A stretch of 64,000 nt of DNA from contig PAQY01000012.1 in NCBI GenBank assembly GCA_002709955.1, forward strand, positions 505,679 through 569,678, given 5' to 3'. How positions within the stretch are numbered: the stretch's first letter is position 1; the number at the start of each line of letters is the position of its first letter. This document shows, one piece after another, positions 1,434 through 14,813 of the stretch. The position numbers and the translations under genes were made by a program. The stretch is from Rhodospirillaceae bacterium (lineage in GTDB: Bacteria; Pseudomonadota; Alphaproteobacteria; UBA8366; Aestuariispiraceae). Below the pieces are notes generated by a model. The model did not search any database, had not been told where the DNA came from, and worked only from the letters and a program-made list of their open reading frames with translations.

Positions 1434-2369
1434 ATGCAGCCTTTTGCAATTGCGGGAGTACAAATGCATGTTGGAGCCTATGCTGAAAATGTAACAGCGA
1501 TCCGACAGCGCCTTGATCTGACCGTCGCCCGCTTTCCTTGGGTTCAGATGGTTATGTTTTCTGAACTGGCCCCTTATGGGCCCTTGCCGGAACATGCACA
1601 GACCCTGCCTGGGCCTGCTGAGGAGATTTTCCAGGAAATGGCGCGCGCCCATGGTGTGTGGCTGTTGCCCGGTTCGATTTTTGAGCGGGTTGGCGACAAA
1701 ATCTACAATACAGCGATCGTGATCAATCCAGAGGGGGAGATCGTCGGGCGCTATCGCAAGATGTTTCCTTTCCGCCCGTATGAGGCTGGAATTGAGGCGG
1801 GGACAGAGTTTCTGATCTTCGATGTTCCAGATGTGGGGCGTTTCGGGGTTTCGATCTGTTATGACATCTGGTTCGCGGAAACGACACGCACCCTGACGGC
1901 GCAGGGGGTGGAGGTTCTGTTGCATCCCGTCCTGACCGGAACCATTGATCGCGATGTGGAACTGTCCATCGCCCGCGCGTCGGCGGCCATGTTCCAATGC
2001 TATATATTTGATATCAATGGATTGGGTGCCGGAGGATGTGGACGGTCCTGTGTTGTCGATCCGTCTGGAACGGTGCTGTATCAGGCCGCCGGGCAGGAGG
2101 AGATTATCCCGATTGAAGTCGACCTTACCCTGGTGCGTCGCCAACGGGAAACCGGTCTTAAAGGATTGGGGCAGACGCTGAAAAGCTTCCGCGACCGCAG
2201 CGTCTATTTCTCAATCTATGATCCAACCTATGCGGACACGTCTTATCTTTACAGCCTGGGTCCGCTTGAAATGCCACAGCGGGGCTCCCGGGCGGGTCTG
2301 GATTTAAGGCCAGGAACCCTGGACAGGGGTGCAGCACAGACTTTTGAGGAACCTGCGGGGCCAGGCTGA
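1434..2369 (+). CDS. Carbon-nitrogen hydrolase (nitrilase superfamily amidase)
   Basis: A 311-residue cytosolic enzyme of the nitrilase superfamily, which hydrolyses or forms amides and N-carbamoyl groups through a Glu-Lys-Cys triad. All three residues are visible: Glu44 in FSELAPYG, Lys109 in RYRKMFPF and Cys142 in SICYDIWF. The start is placed at MQPFAIAG because the beta strand that opens the family fold begins there; an upstream in-frame ATG at 1380 would add 18 unlikely residues. The ribosome site is weak. It is the first gene of a four-gene plus-strand cluster with a PLP decarboxylase, an ATP-grasp ligase and an Ntn hydrolase, so it probably acts on an amide of an amine or amino-acid derivative. 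Exact substrate unknown. Confidence 0.9.
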   Translation: MQPFAIAGVQMHVGAYAENVTAIRQRLDLTVARFPWVQMVMFSELAPYGPLPEHAQTLPGPAEEIFQEMARAHGVWLLPGSIFERVGDKIYNTAIVINPEGEIVGRYRKMFPFRPYEAGIEAGTEFLIFDVPDVGRFGVSICYDIWFAETTRTLTAQGVEVLLHPVLTGTIDRDVELSIARASAAMFQCYIFDINGLGAGGCGRSCVVDPSGTVLYQAAGQEEIIPIEVDLTLVRRQRETGLKGLGQTLKSFRDRSVYFSIYDPTYADTSYLYSLGPLEMPQRGSRAGLDLRPGTLDRGAAQTFEEPAGPG

Positions 2370-2545
2370 ATGCGCCTGCACGCCGTCGATACAATAAATG
2401 GAGCAAACCGATCGCAAAACTAACGAGTGAGTCCAAAAAGAATGCCGCCCTTAAAGGCGGAAAACCGGGGGCAAATGAAGGCAAGGCACTAGCGATTCGT
2501 CGCAGCGGGCCAGGTGACCTGACCGCGCATTATTCCGCGTCTCAA

Positions 2546-5254
2546 TTGCGGAATGACAGTTGGAGCAAACTGAAAAATGCAGCGGCGCGCCTGATGGTGG
2601 CTGAACGGCGCGATCCGGACTCCCCCATGCACAGGGTTGTCGAGGAATTGCTGCACAAGCTGGAACCTATTGAAAGTTATTGGGCCTTTCCAGGGCGGGT
2701 CACGTTCGAGCGTCTGCATACAATGTTTGAAGAGCAGGAATTCACGACGCTTGCCCATACAGTTGCCCGAATCACGCGGGCCTTGATGTCCGACAGCTAT
2801 CGCAGCCGACATATCCATGTCATCCCCACAGAAGATGATGAAGACAGTGACGAGCGGTCCGATACCGCCGAAGAACGCGCGCGCAATCGCCCCTATTTCG
2901 AGGTGATGATTGTCGATGACCTGTCACCCCATCAGGAAACCACGCTGAAGCGGTCGCTCAGAGACAAACGCCGGGCGGAGGATTCCTTTGTCTATGAAAG
3001 CGTGGTTGTCGGCAGTTTTGAAGATGCGCTGATTGGTGTGCTGTTCAATTACAACATTCAGGCCGTCGTTGTGCGGTATGGCTTTCCGTATAAATCCCGC
3101 CACGATCTGCCAATGTTGAAACGCTACCTGAACCGATTGGGCGACGAGACGTTCGATGATCTGCCGCCGGAAGAATTTGGCGTCAATCTGGCCTATGCCA
3201 TCGGGAAGCTGCGTCCTGAACTGGATATCTATATGGTCACGGATCAGTCCGTGGAGGATATTGCAGGGCGGGTCTGTGAGAATTGCCGCCGGGTCTTCTA
3301 TAATCAGGAAGACTATATGGAGCTGCATCTGAACATCCTGCGCGGGGTCAACACGCGCTATAAGACGCCGTTCTTTACCGCCCTGAAGGAATATTCCAAG
3401 CAGCCGACCGGTGTGTTTCATGCCATGCCGATCAGCCGTGGGAAATCCATTGCCAAGTCCCATTGGATCAAGGATATGGGCGACTTTTATGGGATGAACA
3501 TCTTCCTGGCGGAAACCTCTGCCACATCGGGTGGATTGGATTCGCTGCTGGATCCCCATGGTCCGATCAAGCATGCGCAGGAATCGGCGGCGCGTGCGTT
3601 TGGCGCACGGCAGACGTTTTTTGCCACCAATGGCACATCGACCTGTAACAAGATTGTGGTTCAGGCGCTGGTGAAGCCGGACGATATCGTTCTGGTGGAT
3701 CGGGATTGTCACAAATCCCACCATTATGGAATGGTGTTGGCAGGCGCACAGGTTGTCTATCTGGACAGCTATCCGCTGAATGAGTTTTCCATGTATGGCG
3801 CGGTACCGCTGCGCGAGATCAAGCATCAGCTACTAACGCTCAAGAAAGCCGGAAAACTGGACCGGGTGAAGATGCTGTTGCTGACCAACTGTACCTTCGA
3901 TGGGCTGGTCTATAACGTTGAACGGGTGATGGAAGAATGTCTGGCGATCAAGCCGGACCTGGTCTTTTTGTGGGACGAGGCGTGGTTTGCCTTTGCCCGT
4001 TTCGGGCCAACCTATCGCCAGCGCACCGCCATGCACAATGCGGCGATGTTGCGGGAACGCTATCAGACCGGCGAATATCGCGAACAATATGAGACCTGGA
4101 AGGCCGCTTTTGATAAGGCTGGGTCAGAGAAGGAGTCGACCTGGCTGGATCAGCGCCTGATGCCTGATCCAGACAAGGTGCGGGTCCGCGTCTATGCCTG
4201 CCAGTCGACCCACAAGACCCTGACCAGTCTGCGTCAGGGTTCGATGATCCATATTCATGATCAGGATTACAAATCCAAGGCGGAGGAATCGTTCCACGAA
4301 GCCTATATGACCCATACATCGACGTCTCCAAATTATCAGATCGTTGCGTCCCTGGATGTGGGGCGACGGCAGGTGGAATTGGAAGGCTTCGAAATGGTGC
4401 AGAAGCAGGTCGAAATGGCCATGGTCCTGCGCGAGAAAATCACGACCCATCCCTTGTTAAGCAAATATTTCCGCATCCTGACAGCCAGCGACATGATTCC
4501 CGCTGAATATCGTGAAAGCGGTATGGAATCCTATTTTCAGGTCGGGCATGGCTGGGCCGATATCTGGGAAGCCTGGGCGAAGGATGAATTCGCCCTGGAT
4601 GCAACGCGGGTTACATTGCTGATCGGCAAAACCGGACTGGATGGCGATACATTCAAGAATAAGGAGTTGATGGATAAATACGGGATTCAGATCAACAAGA
4701 CATCCCGCAATACGGTCTTGTTCATGACCAATATCGGGACCACACGGTCCTCAGTCGCGTATCTGATCGAAGTTCTGGTGAAGATCGCAGCGGAACTGGA
4801 CGAACGGTTGGATGATTCTTCACCGGTCGAACGCGCGCTGCATAATCGCCAGGTAACATCCCTGCTGGAAGAATTGCCACCACAGCCAGATTTCAGCCGC
4901 TTCCATGACTCTTTCCGCGCAAAGAACACCCAAAAGGGGCAGAGCGCGGATACGGCAGAAGGGGATATTCGCACCGCTTACTTCCTGGCCTATGATCAGG
5001 AGAACTGTGAATATCTAAGCCTGGAAGATGGCAGTTTGGATGCAGAAATGGCCAAGGGCCGGGAAATCGTATCATCGACCTTCATCATTCCCTATCCACC
5101 GGGTTTCCCAATTCTGGTGCCAGGGCAGGTCTTAAGTATCGAAATTCTGAAATATATGCGGGCATTGGATGTGAAGGAAATTCACGGCTATCGCCCGGAA
5201 CTGGGACTGCGCGTATTCACAGAAAAGGCGTTAAAAGACGTCGCAAAGAAATGA
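2546..5254 (+). CDS. PLP-dependent Orn/Lys/Arg decarboxylase-like enzyme with N-terminal receiver-like domain
   Basis: A 902-residue fold-type I enzyme of the Orn/Lys/Arg decarboxylase group. Residues 118-240 (FEVMIVDDLS...IYMVTDQ) look like the flavodoxin/receiver-like wing domain of these enzymes. The PLP core follows: TNGTST at 361-366, DCHKSHH at 387-393, the pyridine-binding Asp in WDEAW (D477), and the Schiff-base lysine in STHKTLTS (K557). A C-terminal domain ends near FTEKALKD. Biosynthetic or acid-resistance decarboxylases are usually 700-750 residues, so this one is long. The start is uncertain: the TTG at 2546 has no clear Shine-Dalgarno sequence, the next in-frame ATG is at 2594, and the frame is open without ATG/GTG/TTG back to 2348. 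It is followed after 30 bases by the ATP-grasp gene. Substrate unknown. Confidence 0.85.
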   Translation: MRNDSWSKLKNAAARLMVAERRDPDSPMHRVVEELLHKLEPIESYWAFPGRVTFERLHTMFEEQEFTTLAHTVARITRALMSDSYRSRHIHVIPTEDDEDSDERSDTAEERARNRPYFEVMIVDDLSPHQETTLKRSLRDKRRAEDSFVYESVVVGSFEDALIGVLFNYNIQAVVVRYGFPYKSRHDLPMLKRYLNRLGDETFDDLPPEEFGVNLAYAIGKLRPELDIYMVTDQSVEDIAGRVCENCRRVFYNQEDYMELHLNILRGVNTRYKTPFFTALKEYSKQPTGVFHAMPISRGKSIAKSHWIKDMGDFYGMNIFLAETSATSGGLDSLLDPHGPIKHAQESAARAFGARQTFFATNGTSTCNKIVVQALVKPDDIVLVDRDCHKSHHYGMVLAGAQVVYLDSYPLNEFSMYGAVPLREIKHQLLTLKKAGKLDRVKMLLLTNCTFDGLVYNVERVMEECLAIKPDLVFLWDEAWFAFARFGPTYRQRTAMHNAAMLRERYQTGEYREQYETWKAAFDKAGSEKESTWLDQRLMPDPDKVRVRVYACQSTHKTLTSLRQGSMIHIHDQDYKSKAEESFHEAYMTHTSTSPNYQIVASLDVGRRQVELEGFEMVQKQVEMAMVLREKITTHPLLSKYFRILTASDMIPAEYRESGMESYFQVGHGWADIWEAWAKDEFALDATRVTLLIGKTGLDGDTFKNKELMDKYGIQINKTSRNTVLFMTNIGTTRSSVAYLIEVLVKIAAELDERLDDSSPVERALHNRQVTSLLEELPPQPDFSRFHDSFRAKNTQKGQSADTAEGDIRTAYFLAYDQENCEYLSLEDGSLDAEMAKGREIVSSTFIIPYPPGFPILVPGQVLSIEILKYMRALDVKEIHGYRPELGLRVFTEKALKDVAKK

Positions 5255-5284
5255 ACTGAACAGAGAAAATGGGGGACTATACCT

Positions 5285-7105
5285 ATGGCTAAGAAGGCCA
5301 CTGCAAAGAAGACATCAACAAAAGCCGCTGTCGATGGTGGGGCCCCAGAAGCCCTGACGACAGAGCCTGTGTCGACCACACCGACGCCAAAGGCTGTTGC
5401 TAAAAAGGCAGCAGTCAAGAAAGCGGCCACAAAGAAGGCAGCCACAAAAAAGGCAAATGTGAAGAAGGCGACAACGAAGAAGGCGGCTTCTAAAAAGGTG
5501 ACACCCAATAAAAAGGCATCCGCCAAGAAGTCGTCACCTAAGGAATCCGCACCAAAAGCGACAGCCAAGAAAGCAACAGCCAAGAAAGTTGCGGCAAAAG
5601 CTGAGGTGAAGCGGCCCGTCGCCAAGAAGGCGACCCTGAAGCCGGGAACGAAAAAGCGCGTGCCACGGGAAAAGAAAGTCCTGAAGGGCATGTCGGATAT
5701 TCGGCGGTATTTCCATCGCAATGAAACGCCGATCGTGTTCATCAGTGCGACCAACTTTAACCTGTTGGGCATGGATGAATGGGTTAAGAACTTTAAATAT
5801 ATCAACTATATAGACTGTTATGACGGGCGTCACCCGAACGTATTCGTTCCCAATGAAGCACCCCATGCGGAATTCCAGTCGATTGAGGATATCAACAACT
5901 ATCTGCTGCAGCATAAGGAAGTGCTGGATACCGTCAGCGCCATGGGGAAAAACCCCAAATCGGTATTCCTGATGTTTGACGAGGAAACCGAAAAGCTGGC
6001 GAAAAAGGCCAAAATGGATGTCTGGTTCCCGAAAGCAAAGCTGCGCACCAGGGTTGATAACAAGATCATTACCGTGCGCATCGGCGACAAGGCGGGTGTG
6101 CCATCGGTGCCCAACGTCCTGGCTAAGATTGAAAGCTATGAGCAGTTGCGCGAGGTATCAAAGGGGCTGGGTGAGCATCTGGTGCTGCAGTCAGCCTTTG
6201 GCGATTCTGGACATACAACCTTCTTCATCTCCACCGAAAAGGACTTTAAGAAGCATCAGTCCGAAATCATCGGCCAGGGTGAAATCAAGGTCATGAAACG
6301 CATCAATTGCCGGGGATCGGCGATTGAGGCCTGCACGACCAAGGCTGGCACGATTGTCGGTCCGCTGATGACGGAGCTTGTCGGCTTCCCGGAACTGACC
6401 CCCTATAAAGGCGGTTGGTGCGGCAATGAGATATTCGATGCCAGCTTCACGCCGGAAATCCGCCAGCAGGCCCGGGACTATACCTATAAATTCGGGGAGC
6501 AGCTGCGCAAGGAAGGGTATCGCGGATATTTTGAACTGGATTTCCTGATCGATATGGACAGCGGCTTGATGTATCTGGGGGAATTGAACCCGCGCATTAC
6601 CGGGGCGTCTTCCATGACCAATCACGCCGCCTTTGCCCATGCGGATGCGCCGCTGTTCCTGTTCCATCTGCTGGAATTTTCAGGGGTGCCGTTTGAGCTG
6701 GATGTCGAGGCCCTGAACGACCGTTGGGCTGATCCAGACAATATCGACAGTTGGTCCCAATATGTCATGAAACATACACAGGATTCGGTAGACATCATCA
6801 CCGAAGCCCCCGAAAGTGGCATCTATCGTATGAACCCTGATGGCAGTATCGATTTCAGTCGATTTGACTATCACCGCCGTGCGGTTGCCAGCGAGAATGA
6901 AGCCTTTTTCCTGAGAATTTCCGGGGTCGGAGATTATCGGTATGAAGGGGCCGACCTTGGCATTCTGGTGACCCGCGGTCGTCTAATGACCGATAACTTT
7001 AAGCTGAATAAGCGGGCCAAGAAATGGATCAATGGAATGCGCGGGAAGTTCAAGGGGCGGGGATTACAACCGGCACCGACCGCTGGGGCATACAAGATTC
7101 TGTAA
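5285..7105 (+). CDS. ATP-grasp ligase with histone-H1-like lysine/alanine-rich N-terminal tail
   Basis: A 606-residue protein in two parts. Residues 1-135 are low-complexity KKA/KKAT repeats with 40 lysines, like eukaryotic H1 tails or bacterial HctB/AlgP-type proteins. From MSDIRRYF (136) a globular ATP-grasp enzyme follows: a preATP-grasp domain to about 250, an ATP-binding lid around LVLQSAFGDSGHTTF (299-313), and metal-binding residues in FELDF (E417) and GELNPR (E433, N435, R437). ATP-grasp enzymes activate a carboxylate as an acyl phosphate and join it to an amine or thiol. Homologs tend to be labelled biotin carboxylase, but no biotin-carrier domain is present, so an amino-acid or amine ligase is more likely. 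The start ATG has GGGGGA nine bases upstream. It sits between the decarboxylase and the C45 hydrolase, probably in one operon. Confidence 0.85.
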   Translation: MAKKATAKKTSTKAAVDGGAPEALTTEPVSTTPTPKAVAKKAAVKKAATKKAATKKANVKKATTKKAASKKVTPNKKASAKKSSPKESAPKATAKKATAKKVAAKAEVKRPVAKKATLKPGTKKRVPREKKVLKGMSDIRRYFHRNETPIVFISATNFNLLGMDEWVKNFKYINYIDCYDGRHPNVFVPNEAPHAEFQSIEDINNYLLQHKEVLDTVSAMGKNPKSVFLMFDEETEKLAKKAKMDVWFPKAKLRTRVDNKIITVRIGDKAGVPSVPNVLAKIESYEQLREVSKGLGEHLVLQSAFGDSGHTTFFISTEKDFKKHQSEIIGQGEIKVMKRINCRGSAIEACTTKAGTIVGPLMTELVGFPELTPYKGGWCGNEIFDASFTPEIRQQARDYTYKFGEQLRKEGYRGYFELDFLIDMDSGLMYLGELNPRITGASSMTNHAAFAHADAPLFLFHLLEFSGVPFELDVEALNDRWADPDNIDSWSQYVMKHTQDSVDIITEAPESGIYRMNPDGSIDFSRFDYHRRAVASENEAFFLRISGVGDYRYEGADLGILVTRGRLMTDNFKLNKRAKKWINGMRGKFKGRGLQPAPTAGAYKIL

Positions 7106-7209
7106 TTGGCACAGAAGATACTGCTTTCGGAACCCAGTTTCTGGGCGTGCCGGAACAGGAAGGACCGTATCGGTCCGGTCCCCTGACACAGGGGACGGAC
7201 GGAGAAGAC

Positions 7210-8220
7210 ATGGACCTTTATTTCCAGTCGGTTTCTGAAAAGAAGCCCGGCGATAAGTGGCAGACCCTGTTTGAGAGATACTGGCCGGCCTATCGGGCCT
7301 GGTATCTCTCTGATGGGCTGGAGCAGCGCGCGACCTGGCTGACCTGTAAGGAGGCTTTGGAAGCCCACATGCCCCGTCTGTTGCCGACCTATGACTGCTT
7401 GTGTGATCTGGCCGGTGGGGGCGACTTGGCGGCGCGTTTCCTCAGCCTGTGGCGACCCCCGGCCTATATTTCCGGCTGCAGTCAGATCGTCTGGTTGGGT
7501 GATGGTCCGAAACTGGTGCGGAATTATGATTACAGCCCGGCCCTGATCGATGGCGTTATCATGGAAAGCGCCTGGAATGGCACAAAGGTCATTGCGATGA
7601 CCGATTGCCTGTGGGGCGTGCTGGATGGCGTGAACGAAAAGGGGCTGGCTGTCAGCTTGACCTTCGGCGGCCGCCGCGCCGTGGGGGAGGGGTTTGGGAT
7701 CCCCGTTATCCTGCGCAACATCCTGGAATTCTGTGCGACGGTAGAGGACGCAGCAAAGGTTCTAGCCGAAGTACCGACCCATATGGCCTATAATGTGACG
7801 GCGGTTGATAAATCAGGCCGGTTCACGACCGCCTATCTGGCACCGGGCAGCCGACCCGTGATCAAATCCGTCCCCTATGCGACGAATCACCAGGGGCGTA
7901 TTGAATGGCATGACCATGCCCGCGCGACCGCCACGCTGGAGCGGGAGCAGTTCCTGCGGTTCCGCCTGGAAGATGACAAGGTCACCTTCCCCAAGCTGGT
8001 GGATGCTTTCCGAAAGCCGCCTTTGTATACCAATGCGTATCACAATGGGTTTGGGACAATCTATACCGCGATTTACGACCCGGTGGATGGCAGCGCGACC
8101 TATCTGTTCCCCGATGGGTCCAGCAAGCACCATAGCTTTGGTGACTTCAAGGAAGAAGCCTGGACCATGCCCATCGATGGCAATGGTGCCCCCAAAACCC
8201 GTGGCATGGATCTGATATAG
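7210..8220 (+). CDS. C45-family Ntn hydrolase / acyltransferase (AAT-like)
   Basis: A 336-residue protein resembling the acyl-CoA:6-aminopenicillanate acyltransferase (peptidase C45) family. These are N-terminal-nucleophile enzymes that self-cleave before a cysteine and then hydrolyse or transfer acyl groups on amides. The likely autocatalytic site is Gly89-Cys90 in YISGCSQIV, followed by VRNYDYSP as in the family; LWGVLDGVNEKGLAVSL and the TNHQG segment are further family-like blocks. The start at MDLYFQS is preceded by a good GGAG ribosome site; the frame extends upstream into the ATP-grasp gene without need. It is the last gene of the cluster. Together with the nitrilase-type enzyme it gives two amide-acting hydrolases flanking one ligase. 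Substrate unknown. Confidence 0.85.
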   Translation: MDLYFQSVSEKKPGDKWQTLFERYWPAYRAWYLSDGLEQRATWLTCKEALEAHMPRLLPTYDCLCDLAGGGDLAARFLSLWRPPAYISGCSQIVWLGDGPKLVRNYDYSPALIDGVIMESAWNGTKVIAMTDCLWGVLDGVNEKGLAVSLTFGGRRAVGEGFGIPVILRNILEFCATVEDAAKVLAEVPTHMAYNVTAVDKSGRFTTAYLAPGSRPVIKSVPYATNHQGRIEWHDHARATATLEREQFLRFRLEDDKVTFPKLVDAFRKPPLYTNAYHNGFGTIYTAIYDPVDGSATYLFPDGSSKHHSFGDFKEEAWTMPIDGNGAPKTRGMDLI

Positions 8221-8321: not shown

Positions 8322-9023
8322 CTAAGACAGTTGCGGCTGGAGCTTTAGAATATCTGCCAGGGTTGCCGTTGTTGGGTCTGGCAGCAGGGCGATCAGGCGG
8401 CGGGCGCGGGCCAGATCTTCTGGTGTATCTACAGCAATAGACATTGCTTCATAATCCAGATCTTCTGGCTGTACGCTGACGATGGAAAAATCATTCGGGT
8501 GTTCGTACGCGTACAGTGTCACATGTTCCCGATAGGCCAGATCAGACGTCGCGGACAGAATGCGGTGCATCGCCGCTTTTGAGATTGCTTCGGCGCTGGC
8601 CCCGATGGGGAAGGAGCGCGGATAGACATTCGTGGCAAGGTCCGCGCCGCTGTCCAGAAATCTTTCTGACACCTGGTCCACGACGGCGGGGTCGGCAAAG
8701 GGGCTGTCACCGCAGATCCTGACGAACCAATCCAGTTTGAATTCGCTACAGGCGTCCGTGCAGCGTTTTGCGACATCCATCGCATCGCCCCGGAAACAGC
8801 CGATGCCTTCTGCCTCTGCAAAGGCCTGTAAGGGATCATCCAGGGCGCGGTCGCTGGTGGCCAGGATCATGTCCGACACATAATGACAGCGGCGCAGGCG
8901 ATCAATGGCCCGGCCCAGCACTGTACGCCCGCCCAGATCCATCAGGCCCTTTCCCGGCAATCGCCTGGAATCGAGCCTTGCCAACAGCACCAGGGCTGCT
9001 GGTCCTCGCGATGTATCGCTCAT
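8322..9023 (-). CDS. Cytidylyltransferase family protein (SpsF/NeuA-like)
   Basis: A 233-residue nucleotidyltransferase with the glycosyltransferase-A-like fold of CMP-sugar synthetases. The nucleotide-binding loop is visible near the N terminus as ARLDSRRLPGKGL, followed by RAIDRLRR and the ICGDSP segment where the family binds metal. SpsF and NeuA relatives activate sugars as CMP derivatives for surface polysaccharide or glycoprotein. The start at MSDTSRG is one base downstream of the epimerase stop and has a GGAAG ribosome site. The longer upstream frame overlaps the epimerase and is not coding. It is the third gene of a minus-strand DegT-epimerase-cytidylyltransferase set; no NeuB-type synthase is nearby, so the activated sugar cannot be named. 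Confidence 0.8.
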   Translation of the reverse strand: MSDTSRGPAALVLLARLDSRRLPGKGLMDLGGRTVLGRAIDRLRRCHYVSDMILATSDRALDDPLQAFAEAEGIGCFRGDAMDVAKRCTDACSEFKLDWFVRICGDSPFADPAVVDQVSERFLDSGADLATNVYPRSFPIGASAEAISKAAMHRILSATSDLAYREHVTLYAYEHPNDFSIVSVQPEDLDYEAMSIAVDTPEDLARARRLIALLPDPTTATLADILKLQPQLS

Positions 9024-9024
9024 C

Positions 9025-10104
9025 TTAATTGGCTTCCACTTGCATTTGCGCGCGGTGCCATTGATCCGCATACCATTCGCAATAGCGTTTGAACCCTTGT
9101 TCCAGTGTCCATTCTGGTTCAAACCCCAGCTTCTCCTGGGCCCGGGCGATGGACAGCGTGCCCCGGATCGGTTTGTCCACGGCGCGCGGGCGATCTTCCA
9201 GGATGGCATTGGGAACAACGGATTTCACCACGGCGGCCAAATCGGCAATCGTGCGGGCATTGCCAAAGGTGATGTTATAGGTTGAGCTATCGTCATGCCC
9301 TTTATGCAGGGCCAATGCGCGAACCATGCCCTGTACCAGATCGTTGATATAGGTGAAGTCCAACCGCCCATCACCGCCGCCTTCCAGCAGCAACGGCTTG
9401 CCGGTCAGGGCGTTTTCAATGAAGACCTGGCTGACACGGCGGGAAATACAGCGTTCCCCATACAGGGCAGAGGGGCGAATAACAGTCGTCCCCAATCCGT
9501 ATTGTGTCCGATAGGTTCGGACCAGCCGTTCCCCCATGAATTTGGCATTAGCATAAATGCCTTCCGGGCGCGGGAAGGTGGTTTCATCCACGCTTGCGCC
9601 TTCAAAATCGCCGTAAACGGTCGAAGACGACATGAACATGACCTGATTGATGTCTTTGACTTTCGGGCGCACCAGTTCCAGGACATTGCGCAGCGTGATC
9701 AGCTGAAGGTCAAAGGCGAGGCCCGGTTCTGCCTTGGCATCCACGGCGCTGGCGATGGCGGCCATATGGACGACCTTGGTGGGCTGGAAGGCTTCAAACA
9801 CGCGGCCCAGATCGGCCAGCAGACGCGCATCGCTGTTCATCAGCATCACGCCATTTTCCCGCAACAGCAGAAAGCGATCCAACAGAAAGTTCTGATAGGC
9901 GGTGCGCTGGACAACATTGCGTCCGGGTTCATAACAATTTTCGATCAGGCTGTTGACCATCAGATTGTCGCATATGCCAACCGTGGCCCCCATGCGGGAA
10001 AGCTCCAGCGCCAGGTTATGGCCAATAAAGCCAGCCCCCCCAACCAGCAAGATGCGCTGGTCTTCCAGATGTGGTCTTAATGTCTCAAAAGGTATCGAAC
10101 TCAT
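9025..10104 (-). CDS. NAD-dependent epimerase/dehydratase (extended SDR)
   Basis: A 359-residue nucleotide-sugar-modifying SDR enzyme. The NAD-binding glycine motif GGAGFIG is at residues 22-28. The catalytic Ser/Thr region is SSSTVYG and the catalytic pair is in YANAK (YxxxK). The C-terminal half (RPSALYGERC, FTYINDLVQGM) is typical of UDP- or GDP-sugar 4-epimerases and 4,6-dehydratases. The start is at MSSIPFE because AGAAGGAGAT lies nine bases upstream; an earlier in-frame ATG at 10194 overlaps the aminotransferase. With the DegT enzyme upstream and the cytidylyltransferase downstream it probably builds an activated amino or deoxy sugar for a surface glycan or for flagellin. Epimerase or dehydratase cannot be decided by eye. 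Confidence 0.88.
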   Translation of the reverse strand: MSSIPFETLRPHLEDQRILLVGGAGFIGHNLALELSRMGATVGICDNLMVNSLIENCYEPGRNVVQRTAYQNFLLDRFLLLRENGVMLMNSDARLLADLGRVFEAFQPTKVVHMAAIASAVDAKAEPGLAFDLQLITLRNVLELVRPKVKDINQVMFMSSSTVYGDFEGASVDETTFPRPEGIYANAKFMGERLVRTYRTQYGLGTTVIRPSALYGERCISRRVSQVFIENALTGKPLLLEGGGDGRLDFTYINDLVQGMVRALALHKGHDDSSTYNITFGNARTIADLAAVVKSVVPNAILEDRPRAVDKPIRGTLSIARAQEKLGFEPEWTLEQGFKRYCEWYADQWHRAQMQVEAN

Positions 10105-10177
10105 TGCGGTATCTCCTTCTGGTGTACCCGCGGGATCAAGATTTCCAACGATGAAGCCAATGCGTTCTGCGCCGGTT

Positions 10178-11329
10178 TCATCGCAACGCCTCACTATACG
10201 CTTCCTGAAAGGCGTTGCCTACTCTCTCTGCATCACCCTTGGTCAGATGCGGCCCGACGGGCAGGGAGATGGTTTGATCCGCCAGCCATTCTGCGACCGG
10301 AAACTGCCCAGCCTTATACCCGTATTTTTGCGAATAATAGGTAAACAAAGGGACCGGACCTGGATAATGAACTGAAGATCCGATTTTTCGCGCATTCAAC
10401 CCGTCAACGACGCGATCCCGGGAAACGGAGCCATCCCGGGGCAGTACCGCATTGATACAATAATGCGATGATGTCGCCTTGCCATGCCGATCGGGGAACA
10501 GCGTCAGGCCATCAATGCGGGATAAAATCGCCCGCAGTGCGGCATCATTGCGGGACCGATCCGCCATGAAGTGATCCAGATGGGCGATTTGCGCCAATCC
10601 TACAGCAGCCTCAACCTCACTCATCCGATAATTCATGCCCAGGATATCAACATCATACAGACCGGGTCGGGTGCGTTCACCCAGGGCGCGGTTATAGCCA
10701 AAGGCACGGCGGCGGCGCAGGTCATGGGCCAGGGCGGGATCATTGGTGGTGACCATGCCGCCTTCGATGGAGGTCATGTGCTTGACCGGATAAAAGGAAA
10801 AGCTGCCCGCCAGGCCCAGTGTCCCCGCCTTCTGGTCGCCCCAGGTGGCGTCCACGGCCAGGGCACAGTCTTCCAGCACAAAGGCACCTTTCGCCTGTGC
10901 CACCGCATGAATGCGATCCATATCACAGGGAAGCCCCAGATAATGGACGGGCATGATCGCCGCAAGGGGGCCGTCCACTGCTTCCAGCGCGGCTGGGTCC
11001 ATATTCCCGGTTGCCGGATCAACATCAATAAAGACTGGCTGCGCCCCGACAAGTTCAACACTGTGGGCGGTTGCCACATGGGTCATGGCCGGCACGGCGA
11101 CACGGTCTCCCGGCCCGATGTTGCGGGTAAACAGCGTCAGGTGCAGACCCGCCGTACAGGATGAAACCGCCACCGCTTCGGCCGCCCCGATCCGCTGTGC
11201 AAAGGCCGCTTCAAAAGCAGGCGTGACGGTGCCATGCACCAGCATCCCGCTTTCAAGAACGCTGCGGACCGCATCAAAGGCGTCTGCGTCCAGTTGCGGT
11301 TTGCCAAATGGGATGGGGGTATCGGACAT
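10178..11329 (-). CDS. DegT/DnrJ/EryC1/StrS sugar aminotransferase
   Basis: A 383-residue PLP enzyme that transfers an amino group from glutamate or glutamine to a keto-sugar nucleotide. The PLP-lysine is K183 in FYPVKHMTSIEGG and the ring-nitrogen Asp is D154 in VLEDCALA; SSCTAGLHL (56-64) binds the phosphate. The C-terminal SSHYCINA and HYPGPVPLF segments are family-typical. Start at MSDTPIP (GGAGAG upstream). It is the first gene of the minus-strand sugar set, with 73 bases to the epimerase. In combination this gives a plausible ketosugar-to-aminosugar route for flagellin or LPS decoration, close to the flagellar locus. The product sugar is unknown. Confidence 0.9.
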   Translation of the reverse strand: MSDTPIPFGKPQLDADAFDAVRSVLESGMLVHGTVTPAFEAAFAQRIGAAEAVAVSSCTAGLHLTLFTRNIGPGDRVAVPAMTHVATAHSVELVGAQPVFIDVDPATGNMDPAALEAVDGPLAAIMPVHYLGLPCDMDRIHAVAQAKGAFVLEDCALAVDATWGDQKAGTLGLAGSFSFYPVKHMTSIEGGMVTTNDPALAHDLRRRRAFGYNRALGERTRPGLYDVDILGMNYRMSEVEAAVGLAQIAHLDHFMADRSRNDAALRAILSRIDGLTLFPDRHGKATSSHYCINAVLPRDGSVSRDRVVDGLNARKIGSSVHYPGPVPLFTYYSQKYGYKAGQFPVAEWLADQTISLPVGPHLTKGDAERVGNAFQEAYSEALR

Positions 11330-11395
11330 GGCGGTTGCTCTCCGGGCCGTGATTGCTTCCAAGTTTGGAAGCAATTTTCACGCCAGATCAAGCCG

Positions 11396-12257: not shown

Positions 12258-12674
12258 AAGCAATCTCCTTATGTTTTAGCGCCAAGCCCGTATGTACAGA
12301 TGAGATGTACAGTTTCTCAGCATGGCCTGGCGCATTTTGAGATCCGCGCTGAACGAATGCAGCAGCGGAAGTTGAAATTCTACATGGATATGGGATTAAT
12401 ATTTGCAATAAAAAACCAGTTTAAACGTATCGTTTTATATAAAATTTTATTGAAATATAGTATTTAACATTATGATTGATATAACGACAATGTGTAAATG
12501 TGGAAAAATTTTGATTTATTGGAAAATTAGGAATTTTATGTTGAACCAAAAATAACAATTACTAAGTGGATTGAGAGCAAGAAATAGCGTCCGCTGTTTA
12601 TACTAACTTAAACAAGAATAACAGTGCAGAGGGGTTACGGACGCACCATCTGCCAGCAAAGAAGGAGTTCTATT
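12258..12674. promoter_or_regulatory. AT-rich divergent intergenic region
   Basis: 417 bases without a gene, between the DUF1328 gene (minus) and the small secreted protein (plus). The middle is strongly AT-rich. A direct repeat TGTACAG occurs twice with a 13-base period (12293-12299, 12306-12312) in the DUF1328 leader. A TATACT at 12599-12604 is a candidate -10 for the plus-strand gene, but no -35 at normal spacing was found. Confidence 0.35.
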
Positions 12675-13001
12675 ATGAATACCATCGTTAAAGCGGCTGC
12701 AATCTCGTTGGCTCTGGGCCTTGTTGCACCACAGGCCATGGCTGCAAGTGACACCGCGAACACGTCCCCGCGCGATGTGTATGAGCAGAAAATGAACACT
12801 GAAATGGAAAATCAGGAAGCCATTTTCTCTGACAAGGAATTGAGCGCAGAAGCCAGCGCAGCCTGGCAGAAGGTGGAAGAAAACTGGAAGGCTTTGGGCG
12901 AAGCTGCCGATGAAAATTGGGAAGACGCCAAAGACACATTTCAGCAAAGCTGGGATGACTTTCAGGCTAAGTGGAATGAAATGACTTCTGATCAGTCCTG
13001 A
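12675..13001 (+). CDS. Small secreted Trp-spaced helical protein, copy 1
   Basis: A 108-residue protein with a signal peptide (cleavage likely after APQAMA). The mature part is predicted helical and acidic, and it carries five tryptophans spaced 7, 11, 11 and 7 residues apart in the C-terminal half (AAWQKVEENW...SWDDFQAKW). Eleven-residue periodicity is typical of amphipathic helices that lie on lipid or coat other polymers. The start follows GAAGGAG by seven bases. The paralog at 13903-14235 has exactly the same spacing. I do not recognise a named family. An envelope role is inferred from the signal peptide and the DUF1328 and ExoD neighbours. A terminator follows. Confidence 0.75.
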   Translation: MNTIVKAAAISLALGLVAPQAMAASDTANTSPRDVYEQKMNTEMENQEAIFSDKELSAEASAAWQKVEENWKALGEAADENWEDAKDTFQQSWDDFQAKWNEMTSDQS

Positions 13002-13042
13002 TAAGGGATTGGTGAGAGTCCTCACATAGTGATCATACAGAT

Positions 13043-13071
13043 GCGCCCCGTCGAAAGGCGGGGCGTATTTT
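13043..13071 (+). terminator. Rho-independent terminator of small secreted protein gene
   Basis: Stem CGCCCCG/CGGGGCG with an eight-base loop, followed by TATTTTGT, 42 bases after the stop codon. Confidence 0.75.
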
Positions 13072-13209
13072 GTATCCTACCATTATCAGACATTTGCGGG
13101 CCTTTGTGACGACGTATTTGCAGATGAAAACAAGGGCTATGAGCATCATGTGTGAGCAGATGCGATCGCATGATGCTGTATGGGCATATCGGGGGACATA
13201 TCGGGACCT

Positions 13210-13803
13210 ATGACAAAACAACCGCATACATTGACCGGCTTGCTGGATGGCATAACAGAGGATGCACCGGAAGATCAGGACTCTTTCTATCTTGGGGCTA
13301 TTCTGGACAGCTTTGGCAGTCGCAGTCATGGGCCCTTGCTGTTCTTTCCCGCATTTCTGGCCACCGCCCCCACTGGTGCTATTCCAGGGATGTCGATTGG
13401 TATGGGTGTCCTGTTGATCATTCTGTCCGTACAAATGATCTTTTCGCCCTCTAAATTATGGATGCCAAAGCGCATCACGCAGATTTCAATTCCCTGTGCC
13501 AGACTGAAAAAGGCGCTGGATATCTCAAGGCCGGCCGCGCGGGTCATTGATCGTTTGTCGATGCCCCGGCTGACCTGGTTGGTCGAGACGCCGTTCAATT
13601 ACGGTGTCGCGGTCCTTTGCTGTGGACTTGCGGTGACGATGATCCCGCTGTCTTTGATACCCTTTGGCAGCACTTTGCCAGGGCTGGCAGTTGCGTGCTT
13701 TGGTCTTTCCCTGGTGACCAGGGATGGCGTCGCGATCCTTTTTGCGACGGTGCTGACCGTTGTAGCAGCGGGGGTTGGATATGAACTGCTGGTCGGGTTC
13801 TAG
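13210..13803 (+). CDS. ExoD-family membrane protein
   Basis: A 197-residue protein resembling Rhizobium ExoD (exopolysaccharide synthesis ExoD family). It has an N-terminal soluble part (LTGLLDGI...GAILDSFGSRSHGPLLFFPAFLA), then hydrophobic helices at MSIGMGVLLIILSVQMIF, GVAVLCCGLAVTMIPLSL and a C-terminal pair ending in VGYELLVGF. In rhizobia ExoD affects exopolysaccharide and alkali tolerance; the biochemical role is unknown. Start at MTKQPHT is preferred; an upstream in-frame ATG at 13180 is possible, and neither has a strong ribosome site. It lies between the two secreted paralogs. Confidence 0.8.
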   Translation: MTKQPHTLTGLLDGITEDAPEDQDSFYLGAILDSFGSRSHGPLLFFPAFLATAPTGAIPGMSIGMGVLLIILSVQMIFSPSKLWMPKRITQISIPCARLKKALDISRPAARVIDRLSMPRLTWLVETPFNYGVAVLCCGLAVTMIPLSLIPFGSTLPGLAVACFGLSLVTRDGVAILFATVLTVVAAGVGYELLVGF

Positions 13804-13902
13804 GGCATTTCAATTTAGCGGTCAGGCCTTGATATTTAACCGTCCCCTATCATGTTCAAAGGCGCGGCGCGTCGCCTCATTTCTTTTAAGGGAGTTTTTA
13901 GC

Positions 13903-14235
13903 ATGAAAGCCTTTTTCGGCATTTTGGCAGTTTCTTTACTATTATGCGGCGGCGCAATTCAGGCTGTGGCTGATGATACGACAAGTCAGAGCGAAGCACC
14001 AACGGGTGCGCGCGAGGACTATGAAGCTCAGATGAAGCAAGAGATTGAAGAACAGGAAGCCAGAAATTCAAACAGACCGTTGACCGAAGATGCGAAAGCA
14101 GCCTGGCAGGGCGTGAAGGACGGCTGGAACGATGTAAAATCAACCACTGATGAAGGCTGGACGGAAGCCAAGTCCAAGCTGGATAACAGTTGGGGTGCCT
14201 TTAAGTCCAAATGGAAAGAAGTTACGTCAGAGTAA
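13903..14235 (+). CDS. Small secreted Trp-spaced helical protein, copy 2
   Basis: A 110-residue paralog of the protein at 12675-13001: a signal peptide (MKAFFGILAVSLLLCGGA...), a short linker, then a charged helix beginning YEAQMKQEIEEQEA. Five tryptophans keep the same 7-11-11-7 spacing (AAWQGVKDGW...SWGAFKSKW) although many residues between them differ. The copy is more basic than copy 1. AAGGGAG upstream sets the start. No known family was recognised. Conserved spacing with divergent sequence points to a structural constraint. Confidence 0.72.
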   Translation: MKAFFGILAVSLLLCGGAIQAVADDTTSQSEAPTGAREDYEAQMKQEIEEQEARNSNRPLTEDAKAAWQGVKDGWNDVKSTTDEGWTEAKSKLDNSWGAFKSKWKEVTSE

Positions 14236-14264
14236 TTTCGGTTCTCCAGGCCATATTCTGATTT

Positions 14265-14813
14265 TCATGGCTCTGAGTGGGTATCACAATAGGTCAGAAA
14301 TGCCTCGGTCATGTCTTCAAAGACTTCTTGGTCACTGTCCAGTTTATTGGGCCGCTGCCAGACTGATACTATTAAATCTTTGGATGATATGGCCTGGGCG
14401 TTTAGACCGAGCGGCAGGATCAGCGTAAAAACAGACCTTCTGTGGCCTTCATAAGACTTGAAATGGGCCAGATGGGCGCTTGGGCTTTGTTTCAGGGCTG
14501 CGCCCATCAACAGATCCAGCACGCCGCGATCATCCGGGTTTAACTGCAAGGGATCTGTGCCCAGGCTGCCTGGAATCAAACGGGGGGCGATAATCTTCAT
14601 CTCCTGACAGATCAGATCATATCGCAAGTCTTCGGCCTGTCCCAGAACCCGTAACAAGCTGACATGCGGCAATAAACGGGGCCCCAGCTGTTCAGCGCGC
14701 AAAGCCCGCCTGGGCTTATCGTTGGGCAACATTTTCCAGTAATCATACAAGGGTGCAGCAGAAGCAAAGAATGTGCCCGGTCGTCCCAATTGCGATGTTT
14801 TTGAATTCGTCAA
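14265..14813 (-). CDS. PAS_5-like domain protein (TTG start)
   Basis: A 182-residue soluble protein similar in plan to the PAS_5 protein at 11396-11980: YDYWKMLP lead, RLLPHVSLLRVLG, LRYDLICQEM and FTLILPLG, which match the family's strand order. The start is TTG with AAGG seven bases upstream in the intergenic region; no ATG suits. Function unknown, possibly ligand-sensing. It ends 29 bases from the small secreted paralog, which is convergent with it. Confidence 0.6.
   Translation of the reverse strand: MTNSKTSQLGRPGTFFASAAPLYDYWKMLPNDKPRRALRAEQLGPRLLPHVSLLRVLGQAEDLRYDLICQEMKIIAPRLIPGSLGTDPLQLNPDDRGVLDLLMGAALKQSPSAHLAHFKSYEGHRRSVFTLILPLGLNAQAISSKDLIVSVWQRPNKLDSDQEVFEDMTEAFLTYCDTHSEP

Follow-up and report, generated by a model that had tools for sequence, protein, structure and literature searches.

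In Drosophila, a beta-alanyl amide is both made and undone by the Black-Ebony-Tan system, which consists of a decarboxylase for an acidic amino acid, an enzyme that forms the amide at the expense of ATP, and a C45/isopenicillin-N acyltransferase-family hydrolase. Ebony is an enzyme of the non-ribosomal peptide synthetase (NRPS)-like type, and Black belongs to a different pyridoxal phosphate (PLP) family from the decarboxylase discussed below. In butirosin biosynthesis, BtrJ, BtrK and BtrG work on a carrier protein, where an ATP-grasp enzyme acts on glutamate, PLP-dependent decarboxylation leaves a gamma-aminobutyrate (GABA) unit, and a protecting group is removed. The Puu pathway passes through ATP-dependent amide formation and later amide hydrolysis en route to GABA, using a glutamine-synthetase-type ligase and oxidases. 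CARNS1 couples beta-alanine or GABA to histidine, and GADL1 is a decarboxylase (PMC7367687). Here we analysed a 64,000-nucleotide stretch (the window) of the 4.2 Mb genome of a Rhodospirillaceae bacterium (contig PAQY01000012.1), in which four adjacent plus-strand genes encode a nitrilase-type amidase (NIT), a PLP decarboxylase (DEC), an ATP-grasp protein (GRASP) and a C45 N-terminal nucleophile (Ntn) hydrolase (AAT). The set stays clustered across many bacteria of sea and soil, and it appears to encode a route, so far undescribed, from an acidic amino acid, probably glutamate, to an amide of GABA.

The gaps between NIT and DEC, DEC and GRASP, and GRASP and AAT are 176, 30 and 104 bases. NIT (1434..2369) matches the CN_hydrolase family of nitrilase-superfamily amidases (PF00795, 113.7 bits, 1.2e-32), DEC (2546..5254) the ornithine/lysine/arginine decarboxylase family (PF01276, OKR_DC_1, 254.9 bits, 1.6e-75), GRASP (5285..7105) NF005096 (766 bits against a cut-off of 684), and AAT (7210..8220) both the AAT model (114.9 bits) and NF040521 (173.3 bits against a cut-off of 85). 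The initial annotation had named four plus-strand open reading frames (ORFs) of these families, which was borne out by the Pfam and NCBIfam placements, and every residue that it had singled out stands exactly at its position in the translations: Glu44, Lys109 and Cys142 in NIT, Lys557 in DEC, Glu433, Asn435 and Arg437 in GRASP, and Gly89-Cys90 in AAT. AlphaFold2 models were used for GRASP and AAT; DEC and NIT were judged on sequence only.

When GTDB genomes were scanned with an alignment of GRASP, at least 556 related stretches were found, and the best 80 were kept for locus counts. All four genes were present in 72 of the 80 loci, and the order was NIT-DEC-GRASP-AAT in 70; L077 and L138 were rearranged, and NIT was missing from eight loci, in seven of which no more than about 210 bases separate the contig start from the DEC match. 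Among these 80, the loci nearest to the window came from an alphaproteobacterial metagenome-assembled genome and from Marivibrio halodurans (order Rhodospirillales). Four unrelated genes might be held side by side by chance or shared ancestry only, and most of the named loci belong to Rhodobacterales or other Alphaproteobacteria and are not independent; however, the set is kept outside the class despite different orders and strands, and this explanation is strongly disfavoured and highly improbable. Mirror-tree distances also correlate (r 0.75 to 0.91 in 31 hand-picked loci), for which shared species ancestry alone could suffice.

A second sample of genomes was drawn regardless of neighbours and kept if the GRASP match reached E <=1e-60. 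It gave hits in 10 of the 385 genomes from the class, 11 of the 398 from the phylum and 6 of the 244 from one further order, representing 22 distinct genomes, the window's own included. Beside GRASP, DEC was found in 20 of the 22, AAT in 20 and NIT in 14. The contig ends at GRASP in one genome (G330), hence the lack of AAT, and inside DEC in two (G106 and G236), hence the lack of NIT; another (G238) holds a GRASP remnant with AAT, and four further loci (L196, L197, L202 and L203) are without NIT. Outside the class, the order NIT-GRASP-AAT-DEC was seen in three genomes (L191, L192 and L194), AAT and NIT are divergent from DEC and GRASP in L195, and AAT is divergent from DEC and GRASP in L202. 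These adjacency counts and arrangements define DEC-GRASP-AAT as the core and NIT as a frequent fourth member. The conserved four-family neighbourhood proposed by the initial annotation was thus recovered, both in 72 of the 80 loci and as a set kept in several orders and strands; scattered homologues, which it had named beforehand as counter-evidence, were not the picture seen. Its statement that it knew of no named pathway with this set also agrees with searches of open-licence papers, in which no description of a pathway with these four families was found. The three distant NIT-less loci L196, L197 and L203 have in common a TPR-like protein upstream, and L197 and L203 additionally share a membrane-protein gene (weakly matching a urea transporter in L197) and, following AAT, a gene that is uncharacterised.

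The model NF005096 (PRK06524) names GRASP a biotin carboxylase. Pyruvate carboxylase can be aligned to GRASP over its ATP-binding part, with E433-L-N-P-R-I-T-G-A in GRASP against E-V-N-P-R-I-Q-V-E, and Ala441 of GRASP stands at the position of the biotin-carboxylase catalytic Glu. We take this Glu, which follows E-x-N-x-R in the VEH motif, to have the same catalytic role as in E. coli AccC. With Ala at that position, a biotin carboxylase function is disfavoured. The AlphaFold2 model of GRASP has a predicted local distance difference test (pLDDT) score of 74.8, and its best PDB matches are biotin carboxylases; the L-amino-acid ligase 3vot was matched at rank 35 (E 5.5e-12). An ATP-grasp fold was found in comparison with 7ybu (VIA Z 17.2, root-mean-square deviation 7.0, 371 aligned). 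GRASP is, in our judgement, very likely an amide-forming (carboxylate-amine) ligase. Its Lys/Ala-rich N-terminal tail (5285..5650, plus strand), delimited from the ORF list and translations of relatives, is longest in the window's genus, shorter in some relatives and absent from others. This tail is histone-H1-like, and similar lysine-rich N-termini occur on several adjacent GabT proteins of Roseobacter-group loci (e.g., L121 2424-3830).

DEC carries the major domain of the OKR_DC family and the PLP lysine in the motif STHK557. It scored under every NCBIfam cut-off for known lysine, arginine and ornithine decarboxylases (at best 212.5 against 968). The HTPGHGGG of arginine decarboxylase 6q6i aligns with HAMPISRG in DEC, which lacks an HTPGHGGG-type stretch; this stretch, located before the PLP domain, is presumably important in the known lysine, arginine and ornithine decarboxylases. 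The nearest full-length PDB relative, 9n0n/9n0o (871 bits), with which DEC is grouped in one clade, is Rv2531c according to a review that calls its activity unclarified (PMC12910592). Arg298, Lys300, Arg721 and Arg734 of DEC are invariant in 73 of 73 cluster sequences. Among three decarboxylases adjoining AspT-family antiporters and three rhizobial or Cupriavidus ones, Arg298 and Arg734 were kept in six of six, Lys300 was replaced by Arg in one and Arg721 by Pro in one. Rv2531c, in contrast, shares only Arg298 in the alignment, with Ala, Ile and Trp in place of Lys300, Arg721 and Arg734. The additional basic residues would fit an acidic side chain, as a hint only; no usable list of active-site substrate contacts was found in the open-licence literature.

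The start of DEC is unclear and may lie upstream of the listed TTG, since the frame is open for 66 codons 5′ of it (2348-2546), without ATG, GTG or TTG, and the final part of this open stretch resembles relatives. L025 likewise has 52 open codons without a start codon upstream of the decarboxylase, L026 has one TTG there, and in the more distant L027 the decarboxylase starts at an ATG. In the window, L025 and L026, the upstream stretch is overlapped by an ORF of ten codons that starts with ATG and is read in a different frame. A rare start, a frameshift or the loss of an N-terminus are possible.

Two amide hydrolases accompany the ligase. NIT has the Glu-Lys-Cys triad of the nitrilase superfamily inside its CN_hydrolase domain, and scores under the cut-offs of all nine NCBIfam models that it matched. 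Assignment as an N-carbamoylputrescine amidase was rejected, as the TIGR03381 score (71 bits) is far under the equivalog cut-off of 410.25. The AAT frame is open from 7024, and the alignment of relatives begins at about 7210. By its family model and internal Cys, AAT is a C45 Ntn hydrolase of the isopenicillin-N acyltransferase type. The nucleophile Cys90 is invariant among 38 aligned sequences, in which the preceding Gly89 is not; self-cleavage at Gly89/Cys90 is predicted. The AlphaFold2 model (pLDDT 93.9) best matched isopenicillin-N acyltransferase 2x1c in the PDB (E 2.7e-13), and a comparison with PDB sequences gave a single weak match, taken as chance. One related plasmid protein is publicly annotated as "carcinine hydrolase/isopenicillin-N N-acyltransferase family", and the genes around distant C45 relatives that stand alone, one on a Sinorhizobium and one on a Sulfitobacter plasmid, hold no metabolic hint. 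L077 has a second, divergent C45 hydrolase gene (13359-14423) on the opposite strand, between AAT and the displaced NIT.

Substrate clues were sought among the neighbours in the 80 loci, whose genes were called by codon usage and then clustered, several being named by eye, with ORFs under 70 codons not called. In 31 of the 80 loci, the block is preceded on its own strand by a fused permease of the TAXI-TRAP type, whose binding protein is present in 30; one of these binding proteins matches 8s4j, VcGluP, with 404 bits. The glutamate contacts of VcGluP are largely retained in the 30 binding proteins: Ser75, Gln93, His123 and Glu125 in all 30, Tyr45 in 29 (with one gap) and Tyr200 in 26. Met201 is replaced by Thr in 28 of the 30, and the Thermus thermophilus GluBP also has Thr at this position, according to the study that reports the VcGluP contacts (PMC11574862). 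In Cereibacter sphaeroides, a TAXI transporter is required for sodium-dependent growth on L-glutamate, and its genes are reported to be followed by rsp_3804-3802, candidates for the four-gene block (PMC12632250). On one Aliiroseovarius plasmid, TAXI genes lie near gabT without the block. A class III transaminase is present in 23 of the 80 loci, and in 16 of them it shares 50% identity or more with the GabT of L121; the three of these that were tested (from L121, L083 and L138) pass TIGR00700, the 4-aminobutyrate model. A PuuR-like regulator, of which one was tested and fell under its cut-off, occurs in 20 loci, and a universal stress protein in 17. The PuuR-like gene lies within 1.5 kb of a clustered class III transaminase in only 6 of 18 loci, and therefore no single PuuR regulon is claimed. 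Upstream sequence of 4 kb or more is available for 66 loci, of which 37 contain a gene of the TAXI, clustered transaminase or PuuR-like kind.

Plasmid records were also read (10 of the 38 with a DEC match and 9 of the 32 with a GRASP match), with gene names taken from public annotations. Two kinds of incomplete locus say most about the substrate. Where DEC relatives have no adjacent GRASP, an AspT-family antiporter adjoins in six of the eight loci read (L031, L160, L161, L173, L174 and L175) and is missing in L172 and L179. One of three AspT proteins tested passes the AspT cut-off and two match under it; in the remaining three loci, the gene carries the public annotation aspT. An acidic amino acid antiporter next to a decarboxylase is the usual layout for exchange with the decarboxylation product. 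Conversely, three plasmids (from Shinella, Sinorhizobium RAC02 and one filed as Roseateles, which has another DEC elsewhere) carry NIT, GRASP and AAT without an adjoining DEC. These three also hold an alanine racemase, a D-amino acid dehydrogenase, a 5-guanidino-2-oxopentanoate decarboxylase (737 bits against a cut-off of 500, tested in Shinella), an aldehyde dehydrogenase and an agmatinase, the RAC02 genes being from our own gene calls. Their identical gene order perhaps reflects one event. By enzyme family, this set would lead from arginine to GABA, and GABA is thus the shared point at which NIT, GRASP and AAT could act.

These loci bear on the main rival, in which the first two steps are swapped: GRASP would attach glutamate through its gamma-carboxylate to an amine serving as carrier, DEC would decarboxylate the product to a GABA amide, and AAT or NIT would free GABA. 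The same glutamate and GABA neighbours would be expected, and the travelling together of ligase and decarboxylase in nearly all genomes would be accounted for. However, the lone decarboxylases adjoining AspT suggest that a free acidic amino acid suffices, and in the three loci with GRASP, AAT and the arginine-to-GABA set the ligase substrate would be GABA itself, which makes the swapped order unlikely.

Further genomes place the block among varied genes. In Cupriavidus, the genes after it encode a DctA/GltP-type symporter and a binding protein resembling GltI, each scoring under its model cut-off; in Roseobacter ponti, its surroundings include gabT, a gene of the glutamate-synthase family and a peptide ABC transporter; and in Shinella, an acyl carrier gene lies about 6 kb away. 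Three rhizobial plasmids (L163, L164 and L165, the last by our own gene calls) have DEC-GRASP-C45 followed by an ABC transporter and an amidase, with nifH-nifN next upstream in L163. In L170, nifA and electron-transfer flavoprotein genes lie downstream, and insertion sequences follow a broken C45 gene. The block thus extends from marine Roseobacter-group bacteria to rhizobial plasmids, near nitrogen-fixation genes in two of the cases read. The L170 decarboxylase is also split, and L171, likewise a rhizobial plasmid, retains ligase pieces only.

Two genomes outside the class, which belong to the same family, carry the block within an ectoine operon, flanked by doeA-doeB-Lrp on one side and by a semialdehyde dehydrogenase with a transaminase on the other; DoeA and DoeB pass their cut-offs in both. 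The ectoine route passes via 2,4-diaminobutyrate, which, together with the family membership of DEC and the PuuR-like regulator, could point to the formation of a diamine from ornithine, arginine or 2,4-diaminobutyrate, to be acylated by GRASP and trimmed by AAT and NIT. This polyamine-type route is quite unlikely: inspection by eye of the neighbours that recur in at least five loci revealed no amine oxidase (small ORFs not being called), the tested transporters are of the glutamate, aspartate or dicarboxylate type, and ectoine breakdown also ends in aspartate. The same end product, along with the AspT genes beside lone decarboxylases, would suit a close variant of the favoured scheme, in which DEC would act as an aspartate 1-decarboxylase and the amides that are made and recycled would be beta-alanyl ones. 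The TAXI proteins, however, retain glutamate contacts and the transaminase model passed is that for 4-aminobutyrate, so that the aspartate version appears very unlikely.

In the favoured scheme, from glutamate to GABA to an amide and back to GABA, glutamate (most likely L-glutamate) would be imported, and DEC would strip its alpha-carboxylate to yield an omega-amino acid, GABA (or beta-alanine if the substrate is aspartate). GRASP would then use ATP to couple the carboxylate of the omega-amino acid to an amine or amino acid partner. AAT, self-cut at Gly89/Cys90, would hydrolyse the GABA amide via Cys90, and NIT may be an accessory amidase that acts on this amide or on a related one. The freed GABA would pass to GabT and a semialdehyde dehydrogenase. 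From the computed genes, motifs, clustering and neighbours, we infer all substrates, the step order and the direction. DEC probably acts on an acidic amino acid or a gamma-glutamyl compound, and the scheme as a whole is tentative, with a probability of about 0.45; these estimates, and that for GRASP as a ligase, derive mainly from the glutamate importer, AspT and the arginine-to-GABA loci. The initial annotation had suggested that an amide of a diamine or amino acid is made, trimmed and recycled. Making, trimming and recycling fit a ligase with two amide hydrolases, and the diamine is less supported: where neighbours are informative, transporters are of the glutamate/aspartate type and the transaminase of the GABA type, which makes an omega-amino acid amide likelier.

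Several observations weigh against the scheme. The window itself has no glutamate or GABA gene nearby, and 29 of the 66 loci with sufficient upstream sequence, including the window's two nearest relatives, have none of the three indicator genes. The characterised relatives of DEC (by NCBIfam and PDB matches) act on lysine, arginine or ornithine, and the PuuR-like regulator and the arginine set hint at basic substrates. In addition, 12 of the 28 clustered transaminases fall short of 50% identity to GabT, the GRASP model is of modest confidence (74.8), and G379 (L068) has GRASP alone, 46% identical and with neighbours that are not interpretable.

Elsewhere in the window, a cytidylyltransferase, an NAD-dependent epimerase and a DegT aminotransferase lie in a row on the minus strand (8322-11374), a sugar-nucleotide cluster pointing towards the four-gene block. 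Further on (12624-14235), two short proteins of 125 and 127 residues, alike by eye, flank an unidentified 207-residue ORF; NCBIfam gave no match at 1e-5 for any of these three.

Relatives of the ligase are encoded in at least 556 GTDB stretches. In public annotation the ligase is listed as a biotin carboxylase, and DEC variously as ornithine decarboxylase, beta-eliminating lyase relative or aminotransferase; judged by the motifs, these labels appear not well supported. If the glutamate reading is true, a decarboxylase family known for basic amino acids gains an acidic branch, Roseobacter-group bacteria gain a new link from glutamate uptake to GABA, and some rhizobia carry the route on plasmids. 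GABA metabolism in nodules is already under discussion.

Compared with the described systems, the block shares with Puu an amide that would be made and then hydrolysed towards GABA, and a PuuR-like regulator near 20 of the 80 loci, whereas the glutamine-synthetase-type ligase and oxidases of Puu were not recognised near it. Butirosin BtrJ-BtrK-BtrG has the order of ATP-grasp and PLP decarboxylation of the gamma-glutamyl alternative; its intermediates, in contrast, are carrier-bound, and no carrier was recognised among the recurring neighbours of the block (ORFs under 70 codons not being called). GADL1 and CARNS1 similarly pair a decarboxylase with an ATP-grasp ligase; no bacterial carnosine is claimed. 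With Black-Ebony-Tan the block shares the logic of a decarboxylase, an ATP-using amide former and a C45-type hydrolase. The likeness is one of logic only, as the amide former here is of the ATP-grasp rather than the NRPS-like type, a nitrilase-type amidase is added, and the block's substrates are inferred. It is doubtful, though conceivable, that the block represents an undescribed pathway widespread among Proteobacteria, with a branch of the ornithine/lysine/arginine family that would have switched to glutamate, and that GABA would be held as an ATP-made amide and reopened by a C45 hydrolase, as a bacterial counterpart of the carnosine and Black-Ebony-Tan logic.
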